34,588 bases of DNA from Candidatus Brocadiia bacterium (GTDB lineage Bacteria > Planctomycetota > Uabimicrobiia > Uabimicrobiales > JABWCH01), in NCBI GenBank assembly GCA_013359215.1, contig JABWCH010000010.1:1-34588 (forward strand), written 5' to 3'. This document shows positions 19,836 through 34,472 of the stretch, in pieces. The notes beneath the pieces are model-generated. The model saw nothing but the letters and a program-made list of their open reading frames with translations, had not been told where the DNA came from and searched no databases. The translations under genes were made by a program, and so were the position numbers. Every line of letters starts with the position of its first letter. The stretch's first letter is position 1.

Positions 19836-20897
19836 GTGGCGGATTTGAATTTTAATGTTGAACCTCTAGGTAACCTGGAACATGCTGCGTTGGTCAAGAT
19901 CAATGGGGCTATTGATGCCAAAACCGTTGTGATTTTTCAAGAAAAACTCGATCAACTTCAGCAAGAGGGCTATACTCGTTTTATATTGGATATGGAAGGC
20001 ATTAAATACGTAAACAGTGCAGGTCTTGGTATTTTAGTCAATGTTGCCGATGCTTTAGAAAATCGTGGGGGCGGAATTGCCCTTGTAAAGATTCATCCCA
20101 AGGTCAAGGTTGTTTTTGATATGCTTGGGTTGAATGCCTTTTTTAAAATTTTCTCCAATGAAGATGAAGCTTTAGTCCATTTCCAAAAATCGGACAAACC
20201 TTCTTCTAAAGGACATGATATTACTAAAACAGCGCCAAGCATTACAACAAGTGCGGCAGACAATCGTCCACCCAGAATTACCCAGACAAAACCAGCACCC
20301 ATGAATGTTCCTCCACCCCCTAGTGTTCCTGTAGCTGCTGCCCCTACCAATGTATTAACAACCAAGGTCAGCCCTCCTACAGAACCAGGTGCTCCTTTTT
20401 CTTTAGTCTGTGCTATGTGTAAGGTTAAACTTACGATTCCCAAACCAGGTAGCTATAAATGCCCTCGATGCGCTACTTTTTTCAAGCTGTATGACGATTG
20501 TCGTGTAACATTCTCTGAAAGAAAAAAGGCTTCGCCTCTACAAATGAAACTTTCTTGTACAGAAGATTGTATGATAGGCTTGTGCGAATTTACAGGCGTG
20601 TTGGCAAATACAATTGGCTTTCCTTATGAGGAAGTTGTTGCCATTAAAGATGCTTTGAAAGAGGTTTGCTCTGCTGTGATCGAAAGAGCATACGAGAATA
20701 AGCAATATCTTTCTTACAATGTAGTCATCAATCCCTCTTCTATGGATATAAAAATTCAGATTTCTGATTATGGCAAATTCATCTACGATGAAAAAGTTTT
20801 CCAAAAAACCATGCAAACTATGGAAGAGTTCGAGCATAAGCAGCATCCCAAAGGCGGCAATATTATCAACTTTGGTAAAACGGTTAAATTGCATTAG
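19836..20897 (+). CDS. STAS, zinc-ribbon and degenerate HATPase-like fusion protein (partner-switch type)
   Basis: This 353-residue soluble protein starts at GTG behind a strong AGGAGG. Residues 1-112 form a STAS (anti-anti-sigma) domain with the phosphorylatable serine in KYVNSAGLGILVNVADAL and the C-terminal FDMLGLNAFFKIF. A Pro/Thr-rich linker (about 118-185) leads to a zinc-ribbon-like CAMC...CPRC (about 192-212). The C-terminal part (about 228-353) has the spacing of an RsbW-like HATPase: VAIKDALKEVCSAVIERAY resembles the N-box with its Asn replaced, and ISDYGKF resembles the DxGxG box. Classical systems keep antagonist and kinase on separate proteins. Here they are fused and the kinase half looks weakened. 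The STAS call is firm; the HATPase call is moderate. Confidence 0.85.
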   Translation: MADLNFNVEPLGNLEHAALVKINGAIDAKTVVIFQEKLDQLQQEGYTRFILDMEGIKYVNSAGLGILVNVADALENRGGGIALVKIHPKVKVVFDMLGLNAFFKIFSNEDEALVHFQKSDKPSSKGHDITKTAPSITTSAADNRPPRITQTKPAPMNVPPPPSVPVAAAPTNVLTTKVSPPTEPGAPFSLVCAMCKVKLTIPKPGSYKCPRCATFFKLYDDCRVTFSERKKASPLQMKLSCTEDCMIGLCEFTGVLANTIGFPYEEVVAIKDALKEVCSAVIERAYENKQYLSYNVVINPSSMDIKIQISDYGKFIYDEKVFQKTMQTMEEFEHKQHPKGGNIINFGKTVKLH

Positions 20898-23878: not shown

Positions 23879-25027
23879 TTATCTATGAAAGCGGTCATAA
23901 ACCCAAATCACTAAAAAAAGTACAGCAAAGATGCAAAAAGCAATGAGTGTTCTGAAATAGCAAGGTTTTGAGGATACTTCACACAAATAGGGAGAAAAGA
24001 TAATTTCAAATGCCTGGGAAAAGCCGAAAAGAAAAACAGCAATGGCTAAGGCCCAACGGTTAGATTGGATAAAAAATGCGATAGTCTGAGATGCTATAAC
24101 ATTGTCCTGGTATTCTATTTCCAGAGGAATGACAGCCTGGTTGCTTAGCATGGTAGAATCCAAGACATAGACATCGTATTCAAAATTTTGATCCTGGCTG
24201 TTTCCTTGTTTGACAAAGAGAATGCGGTTGTCTTCTTTGAAATGGATAGCTCGGATTGGGATATTTTCATCACAATGGCGAGCCAAAGTCAAGAAATATT
24301 TTTTGCCTGGCACAACCCAAAAGGCTACATTTCGCTCTTTTACCTTTCGCCCTTTAGAATCTATCAACTTTCGGGTCATAGGGCGACGAGGTTCTGTTAA
24401 CCCCTTCAAACCTGTCGAGTTAGCTAAAGGCCGCAAGCAAATGTTTTTTTGCAGCAAGAGATCTTGCGATTGTTTTTTTACAAATATCTCAAAATCCTCT
24501 TTTCCCCATATCCAGAAGCGGACAGGGGGCGATATTTCCCCTGCCCTTAGATTGGGGATGGGATTCAGGGAATAGCCTCCTGCAATTCGGCTGGAATCTG
24601 CAATTTCCAGAAAGCTATTCTCCAAAGCATCCTGGCTATTGTTTTGGAGAGTGAGGGAAATCCCAAAAATATGCTCCTGGCCTGCTAATGTTTCCACTTT
24701 GTAGTCTATATCCAAACAAGGGGATATAAAAATTTTTGCTCCCTCTATCTTTTCTTCTTGTTGTATCCCGTCCTTTGCATAAAAAAGTTGTCCTTCTCCC
24801 AAAACAACCTCTCCTGCTTTTTCTGGCAAAGTATAGTTTTCTAACCAGGAGAGGCTCTGTTTAGGGTATAGGATTCCTGGCGAAAAGGTCTTGCATGCTG
24901 GACGCAAATCCAAAATAGCTACAGGAGAATCACCCGCTGTTATGGTAAACCGAACAGAGACTTTTTGTTTTGGGAAATAGGGTTTTTCTCCCAGAATCTC
25001 GCTCTTCCCTTGTAAAGGTCTGGACAT
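23879..25027 (-). CDS. Unknown protein with two C-terminal membrane segments, last gene of the ATPase module
   Basis: I do not recognise this 382-residue protein. It has no N-terminal signal peptide. Residues 1-310 look beta-rich (SVRFTITAGDSPVAILDL, FGISLTLQNNSQDALENSFLEI), suggesting Ig-like sandwiches. The C-terminus has two membrane helices (about 322-345, 357-377) and a short basic tail. The helical-hairpin anchor at the end would leave the large domain in the cytoplasm, unless an unusual signal is used. Its ATG is 3 bases after the ATPase stop, and its GGAGAG ribosome site is formed by the last codons of that gene. This argues for coupled expression and a shared complex, with this protein as membrane anchor. 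Repeat A3 follows it. Confidence 0.7.
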   Translation of the reverse strand: MSRPLQGKSEILGEKPYFPKQKVSVRFTITAGDSPVAILDLRPACKTFSPGILYPKQSLSWLENYTLPEKAGEVVLGEGQLFYAKDGIQQEEKIEGAKIFISPCLDIDYKVETLAGQEHIFGISLTLQNNSQDALENSFLEIADSSRIAGGYSLNPIPNLRAGEISPPVRFWIWGKEDFEIFVKKQSQDLLLQKNICLRPLANSTGLKGLTEPRRPMTRKLIDSKGRKVKERNVAFWVVPGKKYFLTLARHCDENIPIRAIHFKEDNRILFVKQGNSQDQNFEYDVYVLDSTMLSNQAVIPLEIEYQDNVIASQTIAFFIQSNRWALAIAVFLFGFSQAFEIIFSPYLCEVSSKPCYFRTLIAFCIFAVLFLVIWVYDRFHR

Positions 25028-25030
25028 GGT

Positions 25031-27343
25031 TTAGCTCTCCAGGATACGATTGATCAAATCTTTTTTAGTACCATAGGTAGGAAGATTGTAGCGTGAGCAT
25101 AAAGCCCTAAGATCCGAAAGCGTGCAATTGATCTCGATGCATTCCATGATTTCTTCATGGTTGAGAGCATCATACATCTCATCTAAGGTATTCTGTCTGC
25201 CAGTGGATGCCACTTCACATCCATGACTTCCCATATACTGGCGGACTTTCACGATAGGAATGGTGTGTGTATTAAAAATGCGTTCATAATTATTTGGAAT
25301 ATGGCTGCGGTCAACTTTTTTTAGTTTCTCTTTTAAATCCTCGATAATTTTCAACAGATTCTTTTTCTCTTCTTCGTAAGAAAATCGCTCCTTGTGCCAT
25401 GCTTTTTCTTTTTCTTGCCAATCTTTCTCTTTTTCTTCCCAATCTTTTCTCTCTTTTTGCCATGCTTTTATTTTTTCTGTGAATTCAGCAATATCCATTT
25501 CCTGCTGGAGCAGACATTTTTCTTTTTCCAAAAGCTTTTTTTCTTGCTCTAGCTGGCTGTGTTCTCTGTCGATCAGCTTTTTTTCTTTTTCTATCAGAGC
25601 TTTTTTCTTTTCTTCCCATTGCTGTTGGGTAGTTTGCTGCTGGGCTTCGATAGATTGCTCTTTTCGGAGCAAATCCTGCTTTTCCTTTTCCAGCTTTTGC
25701 AATTCTTCCAGATTTTGGTTCTTTAAGGATTCCAGCTTCGAAATCTCTTCCTTTAGCTCTTCTTGTCTCTTCTTTTCTTTTAAAGCGATTTCTTTTTGTT
25801 CCTCGATTTCCGTGGCTCTTTTCTTTTCTGCTTCTTCTTTTTCTCTTTGGATGATCTCAGCGCGATGCAAAAAGAAATGCACGTTTCTGCCTTCCCTGAC
25901 TTCCTGCATTCTTTCATCAAAAAGGGTTCCCAGTATTTTCAGAATATTGCCTAAGGTATCTTGAGCAACTGTGGGGTTTTCCTTTCTAAAGCATAGGTCT
26001 CTGAGTTCTTTTTTGGTAAAAGGAAAAATCATTTCTGGATGCTCTGGTATGCTAAATTTTTTTTCCTTCCAGAACAGACGAAGACGTTTTTCTACAAGGC
26101 TGAACAGATCGGCTTCAGAAGGGGAAATCAAATTAACAGGAGGCTTGATTCTTCTTTGCACCTGGGCAGGAAGCCTTCTCGATATATCCATCCAATCGTT
26201 GAGCTGGCAACTAAAGAAAAGGGCTGTACCCTTACCATAGTTGAAGAGCTTGGCAAGGTCTGTGAAGAAGCTGGCCAAAATTCCATCGTATCTTGCAGAA
26301 TCAATATGGCGTTCTTTGAGCCGAGTCAAAGTTTCTTCGAATTGATCCATACTCAGGCAAATCACTTTTCGGCTTAGGCTGATGAGGGCTAATAGAGCTT
26401 TTAGTCTATCGTCCTGGTATTGAATGACATCTTCCTGTCCAGGGCCTATTTCATTTTCCTCGCTGCGATCCAGGGCAAACATGCTTTCGAAAGCAATATC
26501 CGATTCTTTCCCTGGGCGACAAAGGGCAAGCTTCAAGAGCTGCTGGAATGCTTTGGAAGGGATGCTCCCTGAAGTAAGAGATACACGATATGTATGCAAG
26601 GTTTCATTGACTATCTTTTCTATGTCAAATCTATTTTGCAGCAAAGGTATCAGCTCTTCTGGATTTTGTGCCTTTTTTTGAACATCCAGGCAGTTTGTGT
26701 TTGAATTGTCGAATCTGGAAAAAAAGCCGTTTGGCTTAAGGAAAAGTCTGCTGGCCCATTCTGGATCACCGCTCTGGCAAACTTGCTGTATCGTGGTTGT
26801 AAAAAGAGGCATTGCCATAGACAAAAGGGCTGGATAGTCTTCGTTGAGAAAAGATCGGCTTCTCAATTCATCCAAAAGATTGCGTACAAGATAGTATACA
26901 ACAGAGCCTTTGCCCACAAAAGGTCGGAAGTTCAGATAAAAAGCCCCCATTTCCTGGACAGGCTTTTCCAGAAAGCGAAGAAGGTGTGTTTTCCCAGAGC
27001 CTGCGCTTCCTACTAAAACGATCCATTCATTGCCGCCTTCGTCGTTTTTCTGGACACTATGGAACATCCTCTGTATTGCCCCCATCAATTCTTCCCTGCA
27101 AGCTTTATTGATGTTATGGATATTGCTTTCCCAGACAGCTTCTCTGGACATATTGTCTGCTGCGATAAGAGAAAAAGGATTGTGTCTGGTTTGTGCAATT
27201 TCACACAATAAAGCATCATCAGCAGGAAACTGAAGCCAGCCACTGTTGATTGCTTCTTCTGGCTGAGTAACCAAAGAAAAAGAAATCTCTTCTTTTTCTG
27301 GTAAAGTATGGTTTGTGTTCGTGCTATTTTCTCCAAGAGACAT
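25031..27343 (-). CDS. P-loop ATPase with long coiled coil and C-terminal SAP-like motif
   Basis: This 770-residue cytoplasmic protein has an N-terminal ATPase domain (about 60-480) with Walker A GSAGSGKT (112-119) and a Walker B-like KVICLSMDQFEE (D333 then Q334), as in STAND/Orc-like or conflict-system ATPases. A highly charged coiled coil spans about 497-690 (repeated EKEKKLI, KDWEEKEKDWQEKEKAW units). The C-terminus (about 736-770) reads TLSDLRALCSRYNLPTYGTK, then KDLINRIL, a good SAP (DNA-binding helix-extension-helix) motif. Together they suggest an ATP-driven or ATP-switched machine that touches nucleic acid. Its start overlaps the end of the upstream gene by 20 bases with AGGAG before the ATG, and the next gene follows after 3 bases. 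I cannot assign it to a named family. Confidence 0.8.
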   Translation of the reverse strand: MSLGENSTNTNHTLPEKEEISFSLVTQPEEAINSGWLQFPADDALLCEIAQTRHNPFSLIAADNMSREAVWESNIHNINKACREELMGAIQRMFHSVQKNDEGGNEWIVLVGSAGSGKTHLLRFLEKPVQEMGAFYLNFRPFVGKGSVVYYLVRNLLDELRSRSFLNEDYPALLSMAMPLFTTTIQQVCQSGDPEWASRLFLKPNGFFSRFDNSNTNCLDVQKKAQNPEELIPLLQNRFDIEKIVNETLHTYRVSLTSGSIPSKAFQQLLKLALCRPGKESDIAFESMFALDRSEENEIGPGQEDVIQYQDDRLKALLALISLSRKVICLSMDQFEETLTRLKERHIDSARYDGILASFFTDLAKLFNYGKGTALFFSCQLNDWMDISRRLPAQVQRRIKPPVNLISPSEADLFSLVEKRLRLFWKEKKFSIPEHPEMIFPFTKKELRDLCFRKENPTVAQDTLGNILKILGTLFDERMQEVREGRNVHFFLHRAEIIQREKEEAEKKRATEIEEQKEIALKEKKRQEELKEEISKLESLKNQNLEELQKLEKEKQDLLRKEQSIEAQQQTTQQQWEEKKKALIEKEKKLIDREHSQLEQEKKLLEKEKCLLQQEMDIAEFTEKIKAWQKERKDWEEKEKDWQEKEKAWHKERFSYEEEKKNLLKIIEDLKEKLKKVDRSHIPNNYERIFNTHTIPIVKVRQYMGSHGCEVASTGRQNTLDEMYDALNHEEIMECIEINCTLSDLRALCSRYNLPTYGTKKDLINRILES

Positions 27344-28526
27344 AGTAGATCACTCCTGAATGAGTATAGATAGCGAATTCTGACTCTCTGGCTGCATGAG
27401 GGTCATTGATATGATGCAAATCGATCTTTTCTTGTCCACAAAGTTTATTTAAGCTCATCAGATATTGGCTGACACTCAGCCCAGGCAGGTGAGGCAATGC
27501 CTCTCTATATACTTCAGGGAGTTCAGGGCATATCAGAAGTGGGTTTTGATCTACGATTCGGCGGTAGGCTTTTTCTAGTTCATGGGCTATTTTCTCTTCG
27601 GAAATCTCCGCCTTATCTTTTTCCTGAAATTTGGGCTGCTCTGAATTTAGTCTGGATTCTTTTGGCTTTTCAGCGAAAACAAGATTCTTTTTATCTGGGA
27701 GAGCAGAAGGAATTTGCTCTGTTGCAGTTTTGGGCAAAGAAGGCTGCTCAGGAGATTTCTGCACAGGTGCTTCTTCTTTTCTTACCATAGCAATGTCGGT
27801 TTTCTCTAAAGTCGAAGTGGCCTGCGAAGGCGAGGAGAAAGATTTTTCTACGATCTCTCTAAGCCTCGAAATTTCTTTTCGCTGGCTGTCAATATGGGTT
27901 TGCTGCTCCTCTTGCTGAAGTTTCAGCTTTTCAATACACTCCTTATATTGCTGCTCTTGCTTCTGGGCAGATTCCACAAAAGACGATCTGGCTTTCTCTA
28001 CGATACTCCTAATGGAAAGCATTTCCAAGCCAATATGAGAAGCGTTCTGGAAATCTTGGATCAATTTTTTGCAATCGTTTTCCATGGTTTGGAGCGATTT
28101 TTCTAAAGCCAGAGGCTCTATGGCCGCTATTTGCTGGTTGATATTGCAAAAAAATTCTTGAAACTGGCATGCTGTTTTCTCTATTTCTTCTTTCATTCTA
28201 TCCAAAGAAGAACAAAATTTCTGGTATTTTTTTTCCAGAGGAAGCTGCTTGTGGTATTCTATGATTCCTTTTTCTGTAAGCTCAACCACTTGAGACTTTC
28301 CTATTTTTTTTATCAGCAAAATACCCATTTTCTGTGCTTCTTCAAGGACTTCTTCTTGCTGCATTTTCCATTTTTTCTGGGAAGATATGATTTCTTTATA
28401 AGAAACACATCCAGAAGCTTCCCCGCACTGGATCAATATTTGTTGGAGATATTGTGCTTTATCTAAAAGCATTTCAGATTTGGGAGGCTTGCTCTTTTTG
28501 CCAGTCTGTGCAGAGTTTTTTTTCAT
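27324..28526 (-). CDS. Winged-helix-like, coiled-coil protein, first gene of the ATPase module
   Basis: This 400-residue soluble protein is unassigned. Residues about 20-95 look like a winged helix (ILIQCGEASGCVSYKEIISS, a helix, then MGILLIKKIGKSQVVELTEKG as wing). A coiled coil covers about 100-235, including KQEQQYKECIEKLKLQQEE. A Pro/Lys/Ser-rich linker (about 245-325) follows. A compact C-terminal domain (about 330-400) ends in FAIYTHSGVIYYVSWRK, possibly a second winged-helix-like fold. A GAGGA site lies 7 bases before the ATG, about 80 bases downstream of a strong promoter. Its partner is very probably the coiled-coil ATPase that overlaps its 3' end. DNA binding is inferred, not shown. 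Confidence 0.7.
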   Translation of the reverse strand: MKKNSAQTGKKSKPPKSEMLLDKAQYLQQILIQCGEASGCVSYKEIISSQKKWKMQQEEVLEEAQKMGILLIKKIGKSQVVELTEKGIIEYHKQLPLEKKYQKFCSSLDRMKEEIEKTACQFQEFFCNINQQIAAIEPLALEKSLQTMENDCKKLIQDFQNASHIGLEMLSIRSIVEKARSSFVESAQKQEQQYKECIEKLKLQQEEQQTHIDSQRKEISRLREIVEKSFSSPSQATSTLEKTDIAMVRKEEAPVQKSPEQPSLPKTATEQIPSALPDKKNLVFAEKPKESRLNSEQPKFQEKDKAEISEEKIAHELEKAYRRIVDQNPLLICPELPEVYREALPHLPGLSVSQYLMSLNKLCGQEKIDLHHINDPHAARESEFAIYTHSGVIYYVSWRK

Positions 28527-28754: not shown

Positions 28755-28982
28755 TCAGGGAAGCTTTTTAGCCGTGAGCTGTACTTCCAAAACCCAAGGT
28801 TCTTCCGAAGGTCTGATAATCTCTTTTCGCTCTTTTATGCTTTGATCCTTTATCCAGGAAAGAAGTACAGGGAGACTAAACAAAAAGCAAAAAAAGGGTA
28901 TCAAAACACAACCTGCCTTGATATATAAAGGAATTTTTTTATTTGATAAAAACTTCAATAGAATTTCTATAAAAATTTCCAT
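28755..28982 (-). CDS. Small membrane protein of the kinase cluster
   Basis: This 75-residue product has one or two hydrophobic stretches (IFIEILLKFL weakly, then AGCVLIPFFCFLFSLPVLLSWI) and a polar, charged C-terminal half. No family is recognised. The ATG is 8 bases after the kinase stop, and a GGGGG ribosome site overlaps that stop, so it is probably translated with the kinase. It could be a partner of the kinase's membrane segment. A real gene is likely but not certain, given its size. Confidence 0.55.
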   Translation of the reverse strand: MEIFIEILLKFLSNKKIPLYIKAGCVLIPFFCFLFSLPVLLSWIKDQSIKERKEIIRPSEEPWVLEVQLTAKKLP

Positions 28983-28990
28983 TTTGCCCC

Positions 28991-31900
28991 CTATGGATTT
29001 TCATAAGTTTCTATGGCTTCTTTTTCTGTTGCATAAATTTTCAACAACGGAACTAAGCCCAGCATATTGAAAAGAGACTTGATTTTGTCTGATACTTTTA
29101 CTATTTTAATAGTTCCGCCCTTTTGTTGGAATTCCTCTGTCATTTTAACCAAAAGCCCCATTCCTATACTGTTTATATAGTTTACCTCGGAAAAAACCAA
29201 AATCTGGTCTTTCATGCCTTGCTGGAAATATTCCAGCAATTGCTTTTCACATACTTGCGATGTATAGGTGTTAATAGGCCCTGCGAGTTGAACCAAAGCC
29301 ACCTTATGATTCTTTAAAGGGATTTCTTTTACAGAAAAGGAAAGATTGTCTTTTTCAGAAGTATTTTGCTTTTCTTCACTATAAGAATTTTTTTCTTCCT
29401 TATCTTCATCTGCTTTTGTCTCTTGAATAGAAGCAAAGTCTGCTTTATTATCTGGTAGACTCCAAAAATCATCGCTTATAGAATTTTGCAACAAGACCTC
29501 CAATGTTTCTGTCACTTCACCTCCAAAGAAAAATTTGGTCATGTATTTTGGAGCTTTTTTTACAGCATATTCCCAAAACCATCCTGGTATCCCGACAAGA
29601 TAGTCAAAGCGAGAATCATGATGATTGGGACAGTCCTTCTGCTCTAATAAGGTTTTTCCCCAAGACGGAAATACCATCTTAGAAGGATAAGCCCTTTTCT
29701 CTTTTTCCATACTCCATACTTTGACTGCACCATCCAGAAAGCCTGCTGCTAAGAGGTTGTCATCTTTACTAAAAGCTAAAGCTTGTATATTTTGCGTATT
29801 TTCTATTGGAAATCGTATCATCTCGCTTGCGCTAATAGAAGAAAATACGATAATATGATCTTTCCATACACCTGCTACTAGAGTTTTTGTATGGTTAAAA
29901 GTCAAACAATTCAAAAGATGATTTTGAAGTATTTTGGGCTGTTTTGGAAAAGATTCTTCAGACATATCTATTTCCTTATCTGCATTTGTACCTATAATCT
30001 TTTCTTTTGTCCAATCTACCTTGCCTATCAATGTATTGCCATCTTGTTGATACAAAACGCTTTTCAGATCGTGAGAAAGAGCAATAACAGGTTCTTGAAA
30101 AAATTGACGGTCATAAGTTTGTAGAGGAACATCCCATACCTGAACAGTATAGCCAATAGCAGACTGCATTTCATTTTCAATGATATATCCTACTTTTTGG
30201 CTGTCCAAACTCCATTCCAAAGAAATTACAGTCCCTTGTGCAATCCCATAATTTTGTACATATTGACTTTTGGATATTAACCCCATTCTGGTTTCCAGGA
30301 GTTTAGAGTGGAATTCTTTTTTTTCTGTATCCCATACTTTTACCACTTCATCTCCTATTGCCAGGAATTTATCGTCAGGGCTGAATTTTAGGTTGTGTAC
30401 AGTGCTTAGATTGTCTTGCAATGTCCAAACAATCTTCCCCGTTTCTGCATCCCATAATTTTACAGTCTTATCATAAGAACCAGAAGCTATCCATTTTCCC
30501 GAATTGCTGAATACAGCACAGGAAATAACATCGGCATGCTCTCCGATTTGCTTTTTTTCTCCTGTCTCAAGATTCCATATTTTTACTGCCCTGTCGTCTC
30601 CAGCAGATAGGATATTTTTGCTGGAAGCACTAAAGCACAAGCTTCGAATGCCTCCATTATGCTGTTTTCCCTGGTATACACATTTGGGTGTTTTAGATAA
30701 CAAAGCAGAAACATCCCTGACTACAACCATATTGAAACCACACCCTTCACCTACTGTCCCAGTATCCTTTGTTCCTTCCTCAAAAGAGTAAACGATCTGT
30801 TTGGTATCTGGATTCACATGCAAGTCCAAAGTATTGTATTTTCTCATAAAAGCATTGCAAAAATTATTCTCCATGCTTGCCAGGGTTTGTCCAGATAAAA
30901 GATCATATATTTTGATTGTGCGATCCTTTTCTTTTCTTGCATCTATGCTTTCCGAAGCAGAAACCAATATAGAATTATCCATAAAGGCCAGAGCTACAAT
31001 CGGGGCAGAATGATAATGCAAATTATGCAAAAGTTTAGGAGGTTTTGACATATTGCATACTAAAATTTTGCCATCCTTACCACCCAGTACGATATTTTTT
31101 CCATCAGGGCTAAAAATCAAACGAGAGACATCCAGGTTTATTTTAAATTTTTGTACGCTTTTTTGTTTTTCTATATCCCAGATAACAAGGATTTTATCCT
31201 GTGTTGCAAAAGCGATAAACATGCTGTCATGGCTTATGGCTACGTTTGTATAGTTAGAAATATCATGAAGGTATTTTTGGCTGATACCAGCACTGCGATC
31301 CCAGATTTCTATGCTATTCTTAGAACAAAGCAGTATAATGCTGTTGTTGGCTAAAATTTTTTCATCAAATTTAATTTCCTTCTCAAAGGTATGAAGGCAT
31401 TTTCCAGAGGCAACATCCCAAACCTTACGATTTTTATATCCTGCGCCATAGGCGATTTCCCCATCTTGGGTTATTCCTTCAAAGAACCTGGCATCTTTTA
31501 TTTTCGCAGTTTCATGATATTCTCCAGAAACCAAGTCATAAAATCGAAAATAGCTATTGGAAAAAGAATTATTTGGAACCATCAGGGTTCGTCCATCTTT
31601 ATGTAACTTTGCGCCTACTAATCCTCCTACGACATTCATTTCTTTCACCCATATCAAGCCATACTTTAGAAATGCACTCAGCAATAAATCATCCGCCTGG
31701 CGGCGCAGATCTTCTACTTCATCTCCCGACAAATTCATAACAAACTGAAGACATGCCCCGCATAGAATCCCTGACTGCCTCCATTCTCTTCTTTCGTGAG
31801 CCTCTTGTGCCTTTGCCAGTGATATTTTAGCCAGTTGAATCTTTGCCATATAGGCATCTTTTTCCTGCATTTTTCTGGATTCTTCAGCCTTAATTTGCAT

Positions 31901-33292
31901 AATTTTCGCTTTTTCCTTTTCTATTTCTGCCTTTTTTTCGTTATCTTGTGCCATTTGACGTTGAATTATTTCACTTTTTTTCGATTCTTCGGCTTTCCAC
32001 CATAAAAAGGTAGATACAGTAATCCCCACTATAAGACTCAGAAAAAGCAGCACAACAGAAAACGATACTGCTTTATTTCTCATTACCAATTTTTGGAAAC
32101 GGCGAAGGTTGGTAACAGGCTGCGCTTTTATGGGGCGATTTTCCAAAAAATTTTGTAGATCTTCTGCCATTTCCTCTGCACTAGAATAACGTTGCAATAT
32201 ATTTTTTTCCAGGCTCTTAAGACATATAGCCTCCAGATCTGGATGAATATTAGGATTCATGGCTCTTGGACGGATAGGCTCGCATTTGCTATTGATTACC
32301 TGGGAAAGGATATTGATGTTCGTTTCTCCCTGATAAGGCGGACGGCCTACTAGCGATTCATATAGCGTAGCTCCTAATGAATATATATCGCTACGAGCAT
32401 CCACTGTTTCCCCCATAGCTTGCTCTGGTGACATATAAGCAGGTGTACCCATAATATCGCCTGATTTAGAAAGCCCCGCCTGTGTATTTTGTTGCTTTGC
32501 CAGCCCGAAATCCATAATTTTAGGGATAAAATTCTTCATTACCATAATATTGTGTGGTTTAAGGTCACGGTGGATGATTCCCTTTTCATGAGCTGACTGG
32601 ATAGCGCGAGCGCATAGTATAAAAAGAGGCACTACATTTTTTAAGGTAATTTTGCCCTGCTGGTTCAAAGCTTTTAATGTTTTGCCTTCAATATACTCCA
32701 TAACAAAATATGGCTTAGGCTTCTCTCCTACCTCAAAAATCTGGACAATGTTAGGGTGCTGCAATTGAGCTGTTAGTCTGGCTTCTTGCAAAAAACGGGC
32801 TATTTCCTTTTCATGGATATTGATACTGTTCAAAACCAGCTTGATTGCAACAGTGCGGTGAAGCTTAATATCCCATGCTTTATATACAACACCCATGCCT
32901 CCTTTTCCCAGTTCAGACTCTATATTATAATGCTCCAAAGATGCTCCAGGCAACAGGACAGGCTGCTTTTTAGGTTGTACCAAAGGCTCTTGCGATTTAG
33001 CACAAGATCTATCTCTCTTTTCTGGCATAGGATCTTCTGATTCAACAATCCTTTTTGTAGCAAGGTCTGGGATTACAGATTCTTCTATTTTTACCGTATC
33101 TTCTTCTGTGACTTCATTATCTTCAATGCTACTATTTTCCACTATTTCTATCTTGTTACCCATAGAAGGAAAATTTTTTCTTTCTGGTATAAGGTATTTT
33201 TTCCAGACTGTATCCTGAGGCTGGATAGAAGGTAAATCCCTATCATAATTTTTGACTTCAGAGTCTTGATGAATATTGTTATTTTGATTCAT
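28991..33292 (-). CDS. Membrane Ser/Thr kinase with coiled coil, WD40 propellers and C-terminal STAS domain
   Basis: The 1433-residue protein has an acidic N-terminal tail (1-120) and a full Hanks kinase (about 121-385): GKGGMG loop (129-134), K151 in VAIK, HRDLKPHN (D243, N248), DFGLA (D261), GTPAYMSPEQ. A TM helix (about 408-431) and a charged coiled coil (about 433-510) follow. About 750 residues of WD40-type repeats come next (SAGDDRAVKIWNLETGEK, ASGSYDKTVKLWDAETGK, AAGFLDGAVKVWSMEKEK), probably two propellers. The protein ends in a STAS domain (about 1320-1433) with the phospho-acceptor-type serine in NYINSIGMGLLVKM and FNMLGLVPLLKIY. WD40-carrying kinases are known in Planctomycetes, but a built-in STAS domain is unusual. 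A longer start at 33346 overlaps the upstream gene by 32 bases; 33292 is 22 bases past that stop and preferred, though its ribosome site is weak. Confidence 0.92.
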   Translation of the reverse strand: MNQNNNIHQDSEVKNYDRDLPSIQPQDTVWKKYLIPERKNFPSMGNKIEIVENSSIEDNEVTEEDTVKIEESVIPDLATKRIVESEDPMPEKRDRSCAKSQEPLVQPKKQPVLLPGASLEHYNIESELGKGGMGVVYKAWDIKLHRTVAIKLVLNSINIHEKEIARFLQEARLTAQLQHPNIVQIFEVGEKPKPYFVMEYIEGKTLKALNQQGKITLKNVVPLFILCARAIQSAHEKGIIHRDLKPHNIMVMKNFIPKIMDFGLAKQQNTQAGLSKSGDIMGTPAYMSPEQAMGETVDARSDIYSLGATLYESLVGRPPYQGETNINILSQVINSKCEPIRPRAMNPNIHPDLEAICLKSLEKNILQRYSSAEEMAEDLQNFLENRPIKAQPVTNLRRFQKLVMRNKAVSFSVVLLFLSLIVGITVSTFLWWKAEESKKSEIIQRQMAQDNEKKAEIEKEKAKIMQIKAEESRKMQEKDAYMAKIQLAKISLAKAQEAHERREWRQSGILCGACLQFVMNLSGDEVEDLRRQADDLLLSAFLKYGLIWVKEMNVVGGLVGAKLHKDGRTLMVPNNSFSNSYFRFYDLVSGEYHETAKIKDARFFEGITQDGEIAYGAGYKNRKVWDVASGKCLHTFEKEIKFDEKILANNSIILLCSKNSIEIWDRSAGISQKYLHDISNYTNVAISHDSMFIAFATQDKILVIWDIEKQKSVQKFKINLDVSRLIFSPDGKNIVLGGKDGKILVCNMSKPPKLLHNLHYHSAPIVALAFMDNSILVSASESIDARKEKDRTIKIYDLLSGQTLASMENNFCNAFMRKYNTLDLHVNPDTKQIVYSFEEGTKDTGTVGEGCGFNMVVVRDVSALLSKTPKCVYQGKQHNGGIRSLCFSASSKNILSAGDDRAVKIWNLETGEKKQIGEHADVISCAVFSNSGKWIASGSYDKTVKLWDAETGKIVWTLQDNLSTVHNLKFSPDDKFLAIGDEVVKVWDTEKKEFHSKLLETRMGLISKSQYVQNYGIAQGTVISLEWSLDSQKVGYIIENEMQSAIGYTVQVWDVPLQTYDRQFFQEPVIALSHDLKSVLYQQDGNTLIGKVDWTKEKIIGTNADKEIDMSEESFPKQPKILQNHLLNCLTFNHTKTLVAGVWKDHIIVFSSISASEMIRFPIENTQNIQALAFSKDDNLLAAGFLDGAVKVWSMEKEKRAYPSKMVFPSWGKTLLEQKDCPNHHDSRFDYLVGIPGWFWEYAVKKAPKYMTKFFFGGEVTETLEVLLQNSISDDFWSLPDNKADFASIQETKADEDKEEKNSYSEEKQNTSEKDNLSFSVKEIPLKNHKVALVQLAGPINTYTSQVCEKQLLEYFQQGMKDQILVFSEVNYINSIGMGLLVKMTEEFQQKGGTIKIVKVSDKIKSLFNMLGLVPLLKIYATEKEAIETYENP

Positions 33293-33314
33293 TTTTTTTC
33301 TTGTTGAAAATATT

Positions 33315-34472
33315 TTATATCTCCATTTGATTAGCACAATGCGCATCTAAAATGGAGCTTTCTATCACCATATATAGCCATTCTAATTCCTGTATACAAA
33401 GCCCTCTGCCAAGATATATCTCCGCAATATTGGAGCATAGCATAATGCAATGCCCTGGCAAATGTATACCGAATCTATCTAAACCCAAAAACTGGTTCAT
33501 TTTATCCGAAATCTCCCATTCTATAGGTTCAGAAAGGAGCTGCATGTCTTCTATTTCAGAAAAAAGGAAATCTTTTTTCCTTGACCATAAAGCATTTTTT
33601 TCCAGGACACTCATCTTGTCTCTTGCTATCATAATTTTTATTTCAGTACCAAAAAGACTAAAATAAAGAACAATAAAAATTCCAAGAGTGCTAATACATA
33701 TAAAGGTCATTAACGATACTATAATTAGCCAGATATAAGGAAAAATTTTCCAGTGCATCAAAAAAAATGCAAGCCATATTCCTGCTATCAAACATGCTAA
33801 AAAAAGACCAGTGCCTTTCCAAAGCGAGGGGATCTCAAGATAAATATTTTTATCCTCTAATTTATACTGAAGTCGCGCAGAAGAAGGCAACTTTGCAGAG
33901 CGAGTTGCTTTTCCTTTCAGCCTTTTTGCCAAACATTTCTCATCAGCAGGTTCTATGATTCTTGTCTCGCCCCTTGTAGAATCCAATATCTTTAAGCTCG
34001 TAAAGTGAGAAATACTTTTTGCTATGATCTTCTGTTCAAAATAATGATAGCTTTCTCCCAAAACAAGCTCTTTCTCTACTCCCACCAACTTCAGGACAAA
34101 AAGAATATATTCAGAGTTTTTCCCCTTACCTATTTCTTTCGACAAAGCAACACCATCATAGTCCATAAGACTATGATGCTTTCTAAAAAAAGGTTTGTAT
34201 AATCCCCACCATTTTACCATAGCCTTTTCTTCTCTATAGAATTCTACCCCTTTTCTCTCTAAGCCCACAAGAATACCCACAACAACCAAAAAAATTCCCA
34301 AAAAAAAGGCCATAGGCAAGGGATACTGATTATCAAAACTCTGGCTATTCCAAAGGCATTCTTTTAAGGCAAAGATACCTATACATGCCATAGAAATACC
34401 TACCAATGTAAGGATAGTACTTTCCGTTCTAAAAATCAGTATGTTTGGATCAGAAGAGGATATTGGTTTCAT
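33315..34472 (-). CDS. Four-TM protein with PH-like regions, first gene of the kinase cluster
   Basis: This 385-residue membrane protein has two TM hairpins (about 20-38/52-71 and 222-241/246-272). Each is followed by a soluble beta-rich part: about 75-165 (GVEFYREEKAMVKWWGLYK, ELVLGESYHYFEQKIIAKSI) and 280-385 (ALWSRKKDFLFSEIEDMQLL, HCIMLCSNIAEIYLGRGL). This TM-hairpin plus bacterial PH-like layout resembles YdbT/DUF304-type proteins, but the match is structural rather than by clear motif. AAGGA lies 7 bases before the ATG. It directly precedes the large kinase and is probably co-transcribed, so it may position or sense for it at the membrane. No specific function is known. Confidence 0.7.
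   Translation of the reverse strand: MKPISSSDPNILIFRTESTILTLVGISMACIGIFALKECLWNSQSFDNQYPLPMAFFLGIFLVVVGILVGLERKGVEFYREEKAMVKWWGLYKPFFRKHHSLMDYDGVALSKEIGKGKNSEYILFVLKLVGVEKELVLGESYHYFEQKIIAKSISHFTSLKILDSTRGETRIIEPADEKCLAKRLKGKATRSAKLPSSARLQYKLEDKNIYLEIPSLWKGTGLFLACLIAGIWLAFFLMHWKIFPYIWLIIVSLMTFICISTLGIFIVLYFSLFGTEIKIMIARDKMSVLEKNALWSRKKDFLFSEIEDMQLLSEPIEWEISDKMNQFLGLDRFGIHLPGHCIMLCSNIAEIYLGRGLCIQELEWLYMVIESSILDAHCANQMEI

Follow-up and report, generated by a model that had tools for sequence, protein, structure and literature searches.

In this study we describe a gene found in a 34,588-nucleotide stretch of DNA from a Candidatus Brocadiia bacterium (contig JABWCH010000010.1 of assembly GCA_013359215.1; hereafter the window), whose 1451-amino-acid product was confirmed to join, in one chain, a Hanks-type Ser/Thr kinase, a transmembrane (TM) helix, a WD40 region and a C-terminal STAS domain with a serine at the phospho-acceptor position. 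We hold with moderate confidence that this protein is a receptor kinase whose WD40-STAS arm docks or senses, and that its STAS domain binds a partner instead of serving mainly as a substrate of its own kinase.

Domains of the protein and identity of its STAS module

The coding sequence lies at 28991..33346 on the minus strand, as do all of its parts described below, and runs without an internal stop or gap. We counted it from the most upstream ATG; the alternative start Met at 33292, which a first-pass annotation of the sequence had used, gives 1433 amino acids. There is no clear Shine-Dalgarno sequence by which to choose between them, and the domains are the same either way. The kinase domain (32171..32929, residues 140-392; Pfam PF00069, 5.2e-49) has all its catalytic motifs intact, namely GKGGMGVV at 147, VAIK at 166, HRDLKPHN at 259, DFG at 279 and SPE at 306-308, and thus possesses the Lys of VAIK and the Asp residues of HRD and DFG by which a Hanks receptor kinase is recognised. 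A Kyte-Doolittle scan places a single TM helix at 31997..32071 (residues 426-450), after the kinase and before the WD40 and STAS parts; it is the sole hydrophobic segment past the kinase. The WD40 or beta-propeller region follows at 29597..31423 (about residues 642-1250), with WD40-type Pfam families from about residue 642 onward (PF00400, 2.7e-38) and with the stretch beyond about residue 1052 assigned by reading the sequence. A single TM helix followed by C-terminal WD40 repeats places the protein in the kinase-TM-WD40 class, a hallmark of Candidatus (Ca.) Uabimicrobium amorphum (PMC11032199). The source genome belongs to the same order as Ca. U. amorphum SRT547 (NZ_AP019860.1). The kinase, TM helix, WD40 and STAS parts had all been proposed in the first-pass annotation and are borne out by Pfam, NCBIfam and the hydropathy scan.

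The STAS domain (29015..29311, residues 1346-1444) scores 56 bits with PF01740 (E-value 3.8e-15; cut-off 22.6) and 58.0 bits with the NCBIfam family TIGR00377, ant_ant_sig (cut-off 53.45); the SpoIIAA equivalog of NCBIfam, TIGR02886, is not reached (47.9 vs 114.75 bits). An AlphaFold model of this part, built on an alignment of 16 sequences, has a mean predicted local distance difference test (pLDDT) value of 90.3, and its top PDB matches are SpoIIAA (1tid_B, 1th8_B) and RsbV (6m36_B). Profiles and model therefore agree with the initial assignment of the C-terminus as STAS. The same can be said of the acceptor-type serine proposed in NYINSIGMG: this residue, Ser1393 (29168..29170), aligns in sequence with the phospho-acceptor Ser of RsbV and SpoIIAA, and in the model helix 2 starts with it. 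It is important to note that a serine is the default at this position, being present in 60 of 76 aligned STAS domains (74 from six genomes of the order and two from the window), so that it carries little weight on its own. We rejected Ser1393 as proof of a switch for this reason.

The closest group to this STAS domain, at about 43-50% identity, is formed by the N-terminal STAS domains of planctomycete proteins composed of STAS, a linker, a Zn ribbon and an RsbW-fold domain; despite an identity of only this order, the fold and the site residues of the window STAS are preserved. When the STAS domain was searched for across the phylum, 199 of 392 genomes had matches. Although no other STAS domains are closer in sequence to that of the window kinase, in this family the STAS sits at the N-terminus and its partner domain has the RsbW fold instead of being a Hanks kinase. 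The window itself encodes one such protein outside the kinase gene (353 amino acids, 19836..20897, plus strand). In the PDB its model is matched best by RsbW (6m37_C, TMt 0.92), and the STAS part also matches SpoIIAA; inspection by eye found no recognisable ATP-binding motifs in its RsbW-like part. Its relatives, at 19 loci across Planctomycetota, mostly carry the signature YINSTGMG, in which a Thr follows the acceptor Ser, whereas the window kinase has an Ile there; at none of the 19 loci found with this family does the frame that encodes the STAS also encode a kinase. Behind the closest paralogue in the source genome, C330, come two genes, one of RsbW type and one of RsbV type. Taken by its nearest relatives, the STAS module of the kinase probably derives from this planctomycete family.

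Kinase-STAS fusions in the order and rarity of the full architecture

The six genomes of the order contain 130 STAS matches, 25 in the source genome and 105 in its five relatives. Our fusion check covered 74 of these matches, two full domains of the window (Pfam) and four more, the remainder lying in frames of less than 350 amino acids. Besides the window protein, we identified ten clear kinase-STAS fusions: six that constitute a family, here called family A, and four with an N-terminal STAS. Family A consists of a kinase-like domain and a C-terminal STAS in about 400 amino acids and is present in all six genomes (L168:1935-3116, L169:6975-8216, L170:6300-7487, L171:6532-7731, L172:6626-7810, L173:5345-6550), full length in the five relatives at 50-63% identity. 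Beyond the order, three other genomes match among the 392 of the phylum (E 1e-30), in the kinase-like part only. The family shares with the window protein the Hanks-kinase fold and a C-terminal STAS whose acceptor Ser is kept in six of six; it differs in its length, in having no WD40 region and no TM helix that we could find, and in its degenerate motifs, with HLDLRPEH and DYxxG replacing HRDLKPxN and DFG. Family A is a conserved signalling-type protein. In five of the six genomes its gene is preceded by one for a conserved exported-looking protein, and one of these matches the squalene-hopene cyclase C-terminal family.

The four fusions with an N-terminal STAS comprise three STAS-pseudokinase proteins (G003:C206, G004:C171 and G005:9228282), which have HGE or HGK and lack both DFG and the acceptor Ser, and one STAS-AAA-kinase protein of Ca. 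U. amorphum, with intact motifs and an Ala at the acceptor site. Two further cases were weak and were left uncounted (G001:C647, 13 bits; G002:C66, 10.5 bits). Intact kinase motifs and an acceptor Ser occur together in none of the ten, which argues that STAS is not usually joined to a kinase fold for the purpose of self-phosphorylation. A separate locus of Ca. U. amorphum (L185:370-2601) has a kinase frame and then a weak STAS frame that are in register and separated by only a single stop codon.

STAS also occurs as an add-on module in these genomes in other combinations, STAS-TIR-WD40 and STAS-VIT-VWA being found in addition to STAS-AAA-kinase and kinase-like-STAS. Two proteins of about 1300 amino acids contain STAS and WD40 with no TM helix detected (L032:160-4092 and L034:3952-7752), one of them with a TIR match; their N-terminal part is GTPase-like by eye, and long STAS frames resembling them are present in three other genomes of the order (L140, L153, L155). 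These proteins are possibly part of a defence or signalling system.

Within the scope of our searches the complete Pkinase-TM-WD40-STAS architecture occurred once, in one of the six genomes of the order; the source genome is a draft of 6.39 Mb in 576 contigs and 84.7% complete. Among the matches listed for 59 relatives, only the kinase, the TM helix and the early WD40 repeats were covered, and the query alone matched to its end. Likewise, among the matches listed in the phylum-wide STAS search, no frame of a STAS match longer than 700 amino acids contains a kinase except that of the window protein, and a scan of the WD40-STAS half against the genome contigs gave no relative. The best kinase match in a family member (G001:C138) ends at a contig edge just past the TM helix, so an orthologue is possible there. 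The suggestion that this architecture is rare has therefore stood up to domain and relative searches, neither of which found a second case. Our literature searches, on Uabimicrobium with STAS and on kinase-STAS fusions, found no description of a Hanks kinase, TM helix, WD40 and STAS in one chain, their one match being Vibrio SypA/SypE; in the main text of PMC11032199, STAS has 0 occurrences.

Membrane topology and proposed mechanism

According to the reading that we favour, the protein would be one of the single-pass Hanks receptor kinases with kinase-TM-WD40 layout that typify the order, to which a STAS domain has been added at the C-terminus. Its kinase would be cytoplasmic and, as the intact motifs suggest, active. 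The WD40-STAS arm would bind a partner, which may be another STAS protein, an RsbW-fold protein or a ligand, and this binding would set the activity of the kinase or decide which substrate reaches it; the STAS domain would not be mainly a substrate of the attached kinase. Several observations argue for this proposal. One is the topology: the flanks of the one TM helix (about 20 residues each) carry charges of +5/-0 on the kinase side and +4/-3 on the other, and a majority of the 38 further kinases in the list show this bias too. A positive kinase-side flank predicts that the kinase and the WD40/STAS part lie on opposite sides of the membrane with STAS outside, where it would be kept apart from ATP, from the kinase and from RsbW, and it has been reported that the WD40 domains of the kinase-TM-WD40 proteins of Ca. 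U. amorphum are predicted to be mostly periplasmic (PMC11032199). Others are the proximity of this STAS to those linked to RsbW-fold domains, the use of STAS as an added module throughout these genomes, and the ten other fusions, in which intact kinase motifs are never accompanied by the acceptor Ser.

Several of our observations weigh against this reading. The C-terminal arms of 38 kinase-1TM proteins from five genomes of the order contain 1.44% cysteine (95% bootstrap 1.26-1.64), which is nearer to the cytosolic-like proteins (1.57%, n=209; Mann-Whitney p = 0.71) than to the exported-like ones (0.97%, n=55; p = 0.0025), these two control sets being defined by simple hydropathy and signal-peptide rules and not by a trained predictor. 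The corresponding values in the source genome are 1.55% for arms, 1.54% for cytosolic-like and 0.88% for exported-like proteins, and a looser first test gave 1.43% for 39 arms, 1.60% and 0.85%, respectively. In Ca. U. amorphum alone, by contrast, the arms look exported-like (0.99% against 0.91%), and the exported-like sets of two genomes, G001 and G003, trend opposite but are too small (4 and 3 proteins). If the arm were in the cytoplasm, phosphorylation of the STAS domain in cis or trans would be possible. In addition, the window protein is alone among the fusions found in having both intact kinase motifs and an acceptor Ser, with its TM helix standing between the two; as the single sequence with this architecture, it has no conservation to back a function for its STAS; and no partner of the arm was identified. 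Because the two control sets were sorted by such simple criteria, we do no more than lean towards a WD40/STAS arm outside the cytoplasm, a side to which the charge bias and the published predictions point and the cysteine content does not. The cysteine count of the window protein alone (13 in the 999 residues past the TM helix) decides nothing on the side. The cysteine content of these arms, cytosol-like overall, is in itself at odds with the mostly periplasmic prediction in print.

An alternative that we consider unlikely is a partner switch in the cytoplasm, in which the TM helix would not separate the domains, RsbW-type kinases would phosphorylate Ser1393, SpoIIE-type phosphatases would dephosphorylate it, and the membrane kinase would be gated by this network or recruited to it. 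The source genome, with its 25 STAS matches, 13 HATPase_c_2 matches (10 over cut-off) and 20 SpoIIE-type matches (19 over cut-off), does have the components of a partner-switching network; the RsbW-type and RsbV-type genes adjoining C330 and the cysteine content of the arms also speak for it. This alternative requires a cytoplasmic STAS, to which the charge bias and the published periplasmic prediction are opposed. Furthermore, Pfam scans of 16 of the window's 25 open reading frames of at least 120 amino acids found neither an RsbW kinase nor a SpoIIE phosphatase as a free protein; in place of RsbW and SpoIIE genes adjoining the STAS gene, as in an Rsb-type module, they showed only the STAS-RsbW-fold protein, at a distance of about 8 kb. 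We also give a low probability to a wider proposal, that the arm is cytoplasmic, that the periplasmic topology published for this large class of receptor kinases is at least partly mistaken, and that the order has linked its expanded Hanks kinome with partner switching within single chains. If it were true, membrane kinases and kinase-like proteins would be connected to RsbW-type networks through STAS modules of their own, and the window protein would combine such a module, acceptor Ser included, with a kinase that is active.

The first-pass annotation had offered two roles for the STAS domain, as a substrate of the attached Hanks kinase or as a tether for a STAS-binding partner. The latter has turned out to be the better half. 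The former, in which the kinase would phosphorylate Ser1393 in cis or in a dimer and so alter STAS binding, we regard as improbable, and it is unsupported as it was put. An active-type kinase and an acceptor Ser do share one chain, the arms are cytosol-like in cysteine, and phosphorylation of an anti-anti-sigma factor by a Hanks kinase has a precedent in PknD of Mycobacterium tuberculosis (PMC4601284). However, self-phosphorylation requires both domains on the same side of the membrane, and here a TM helix with an inside-positive kinase flank lies between them, in a class whose WD40 arms are predicted in print to be periplasmic (PMC11032199); the serine is the default residue; the residue that PknD modifies is a threonine, Thr2 (PMC4601284); and in each of the ten other fusions one half lacks the needed residues.

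A recent neutral fusion, with STAS as a passenger without a role, would agree with its presence in one of six genomes and with the lack of a full-length relative in our searches, but we think it more doubtful still, given a fold and site residues preserved at so low an identity to relatives. An assembly artefact fusing two genes might be suspected from a single example in a draft of 576 contigs and is very improbable, as one open frame crosses the junction (29312-29596) with no stop in a contig of at least 34.6 kb.

Neighbouring genes and comparison with known systems

Upstream of the kinase gene, and overlapping its reading frame by 32 bases, lies a gene for a 385-amino-acid protein with hydrophobic segments (33315..34472, minus strand), which has no Pfam or NCBIfam match and is a probable operon partner. 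Distant homologues are present in three other genomes, with one further copy in the source genome, and no kinase is located beside them within the roughly 1.5 kb examined on each side; the neighbouring genes were thus not upheld as conserved partners. Directly downstream, a 75-amino-acid frame with one hydrophobic segment (28755..28982, minus strand) is preceded by AGGGGG. Further downstream, three genes on the same strand (23879-28526) encode a 400-amino-acid charged, coiled-coil-like protein, a 770-amino-acid AAA - coiled coil - SAP protein to which other genomes of the order have distant homologues, and a 382-amino-acid protein with C-terminal hydrophobic segments. At 839-2056, a response regulator receiver is fused to a Hanks kinase with no TM helix. 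The gene context points to no signal for the kinase.

Ca. U. amorphum has been reported to engulf prey and to have a fraction of Hanks kinases that is a record among bacteria (PMC11032199). The window protein resembles its kinase-TM-WD40 receptor kinases in the Hanks kinase, the one TM helix, the charged stretch and the C-terminal WD40 array, in the same order, and differs from them in the STAS added after the array. Little is known of what these receptor kinases talk to; a kinase-attached STAS offers a concrete, testable link between the kinome of the order and partner switching, and its C-terminal position gives a handle for probing the membrane side of the WD40 arms. With the RsbV and SpoIIAA antagonists the window STAS shares the fold and the acceptor Ser opening helix 2; unlike them, it is fused and not a free single-domain protein, it falls below the SpoIIAA equivalog cut-off, and no adjacent cognate RsbW or SpoIIE gene was found.

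The contrast drawn at the outset with known partner switching, in which the kinase would be of RsbW or SpoIIAB type and the STAS a separate antagonist, proved too sharp, because PknD and CapK precede the window protein; kinase-STAS fusions are, besides, recurrent in the order. PknD is a Hanks kinase acting on an anti-anti-sigma factor, which it phosphorylates at Thr2 of Rv0516c (PMC4601284). CapK, an HTH-STAS-GHKL kinase activated by single-stranded DNA (PMC13373217), has kinase and STAS in one chain, as does the window protein; its kinase, however, is of the GHKL (RsbW) type, whereas that of the window protein is a Hanks kinase of PF00069.

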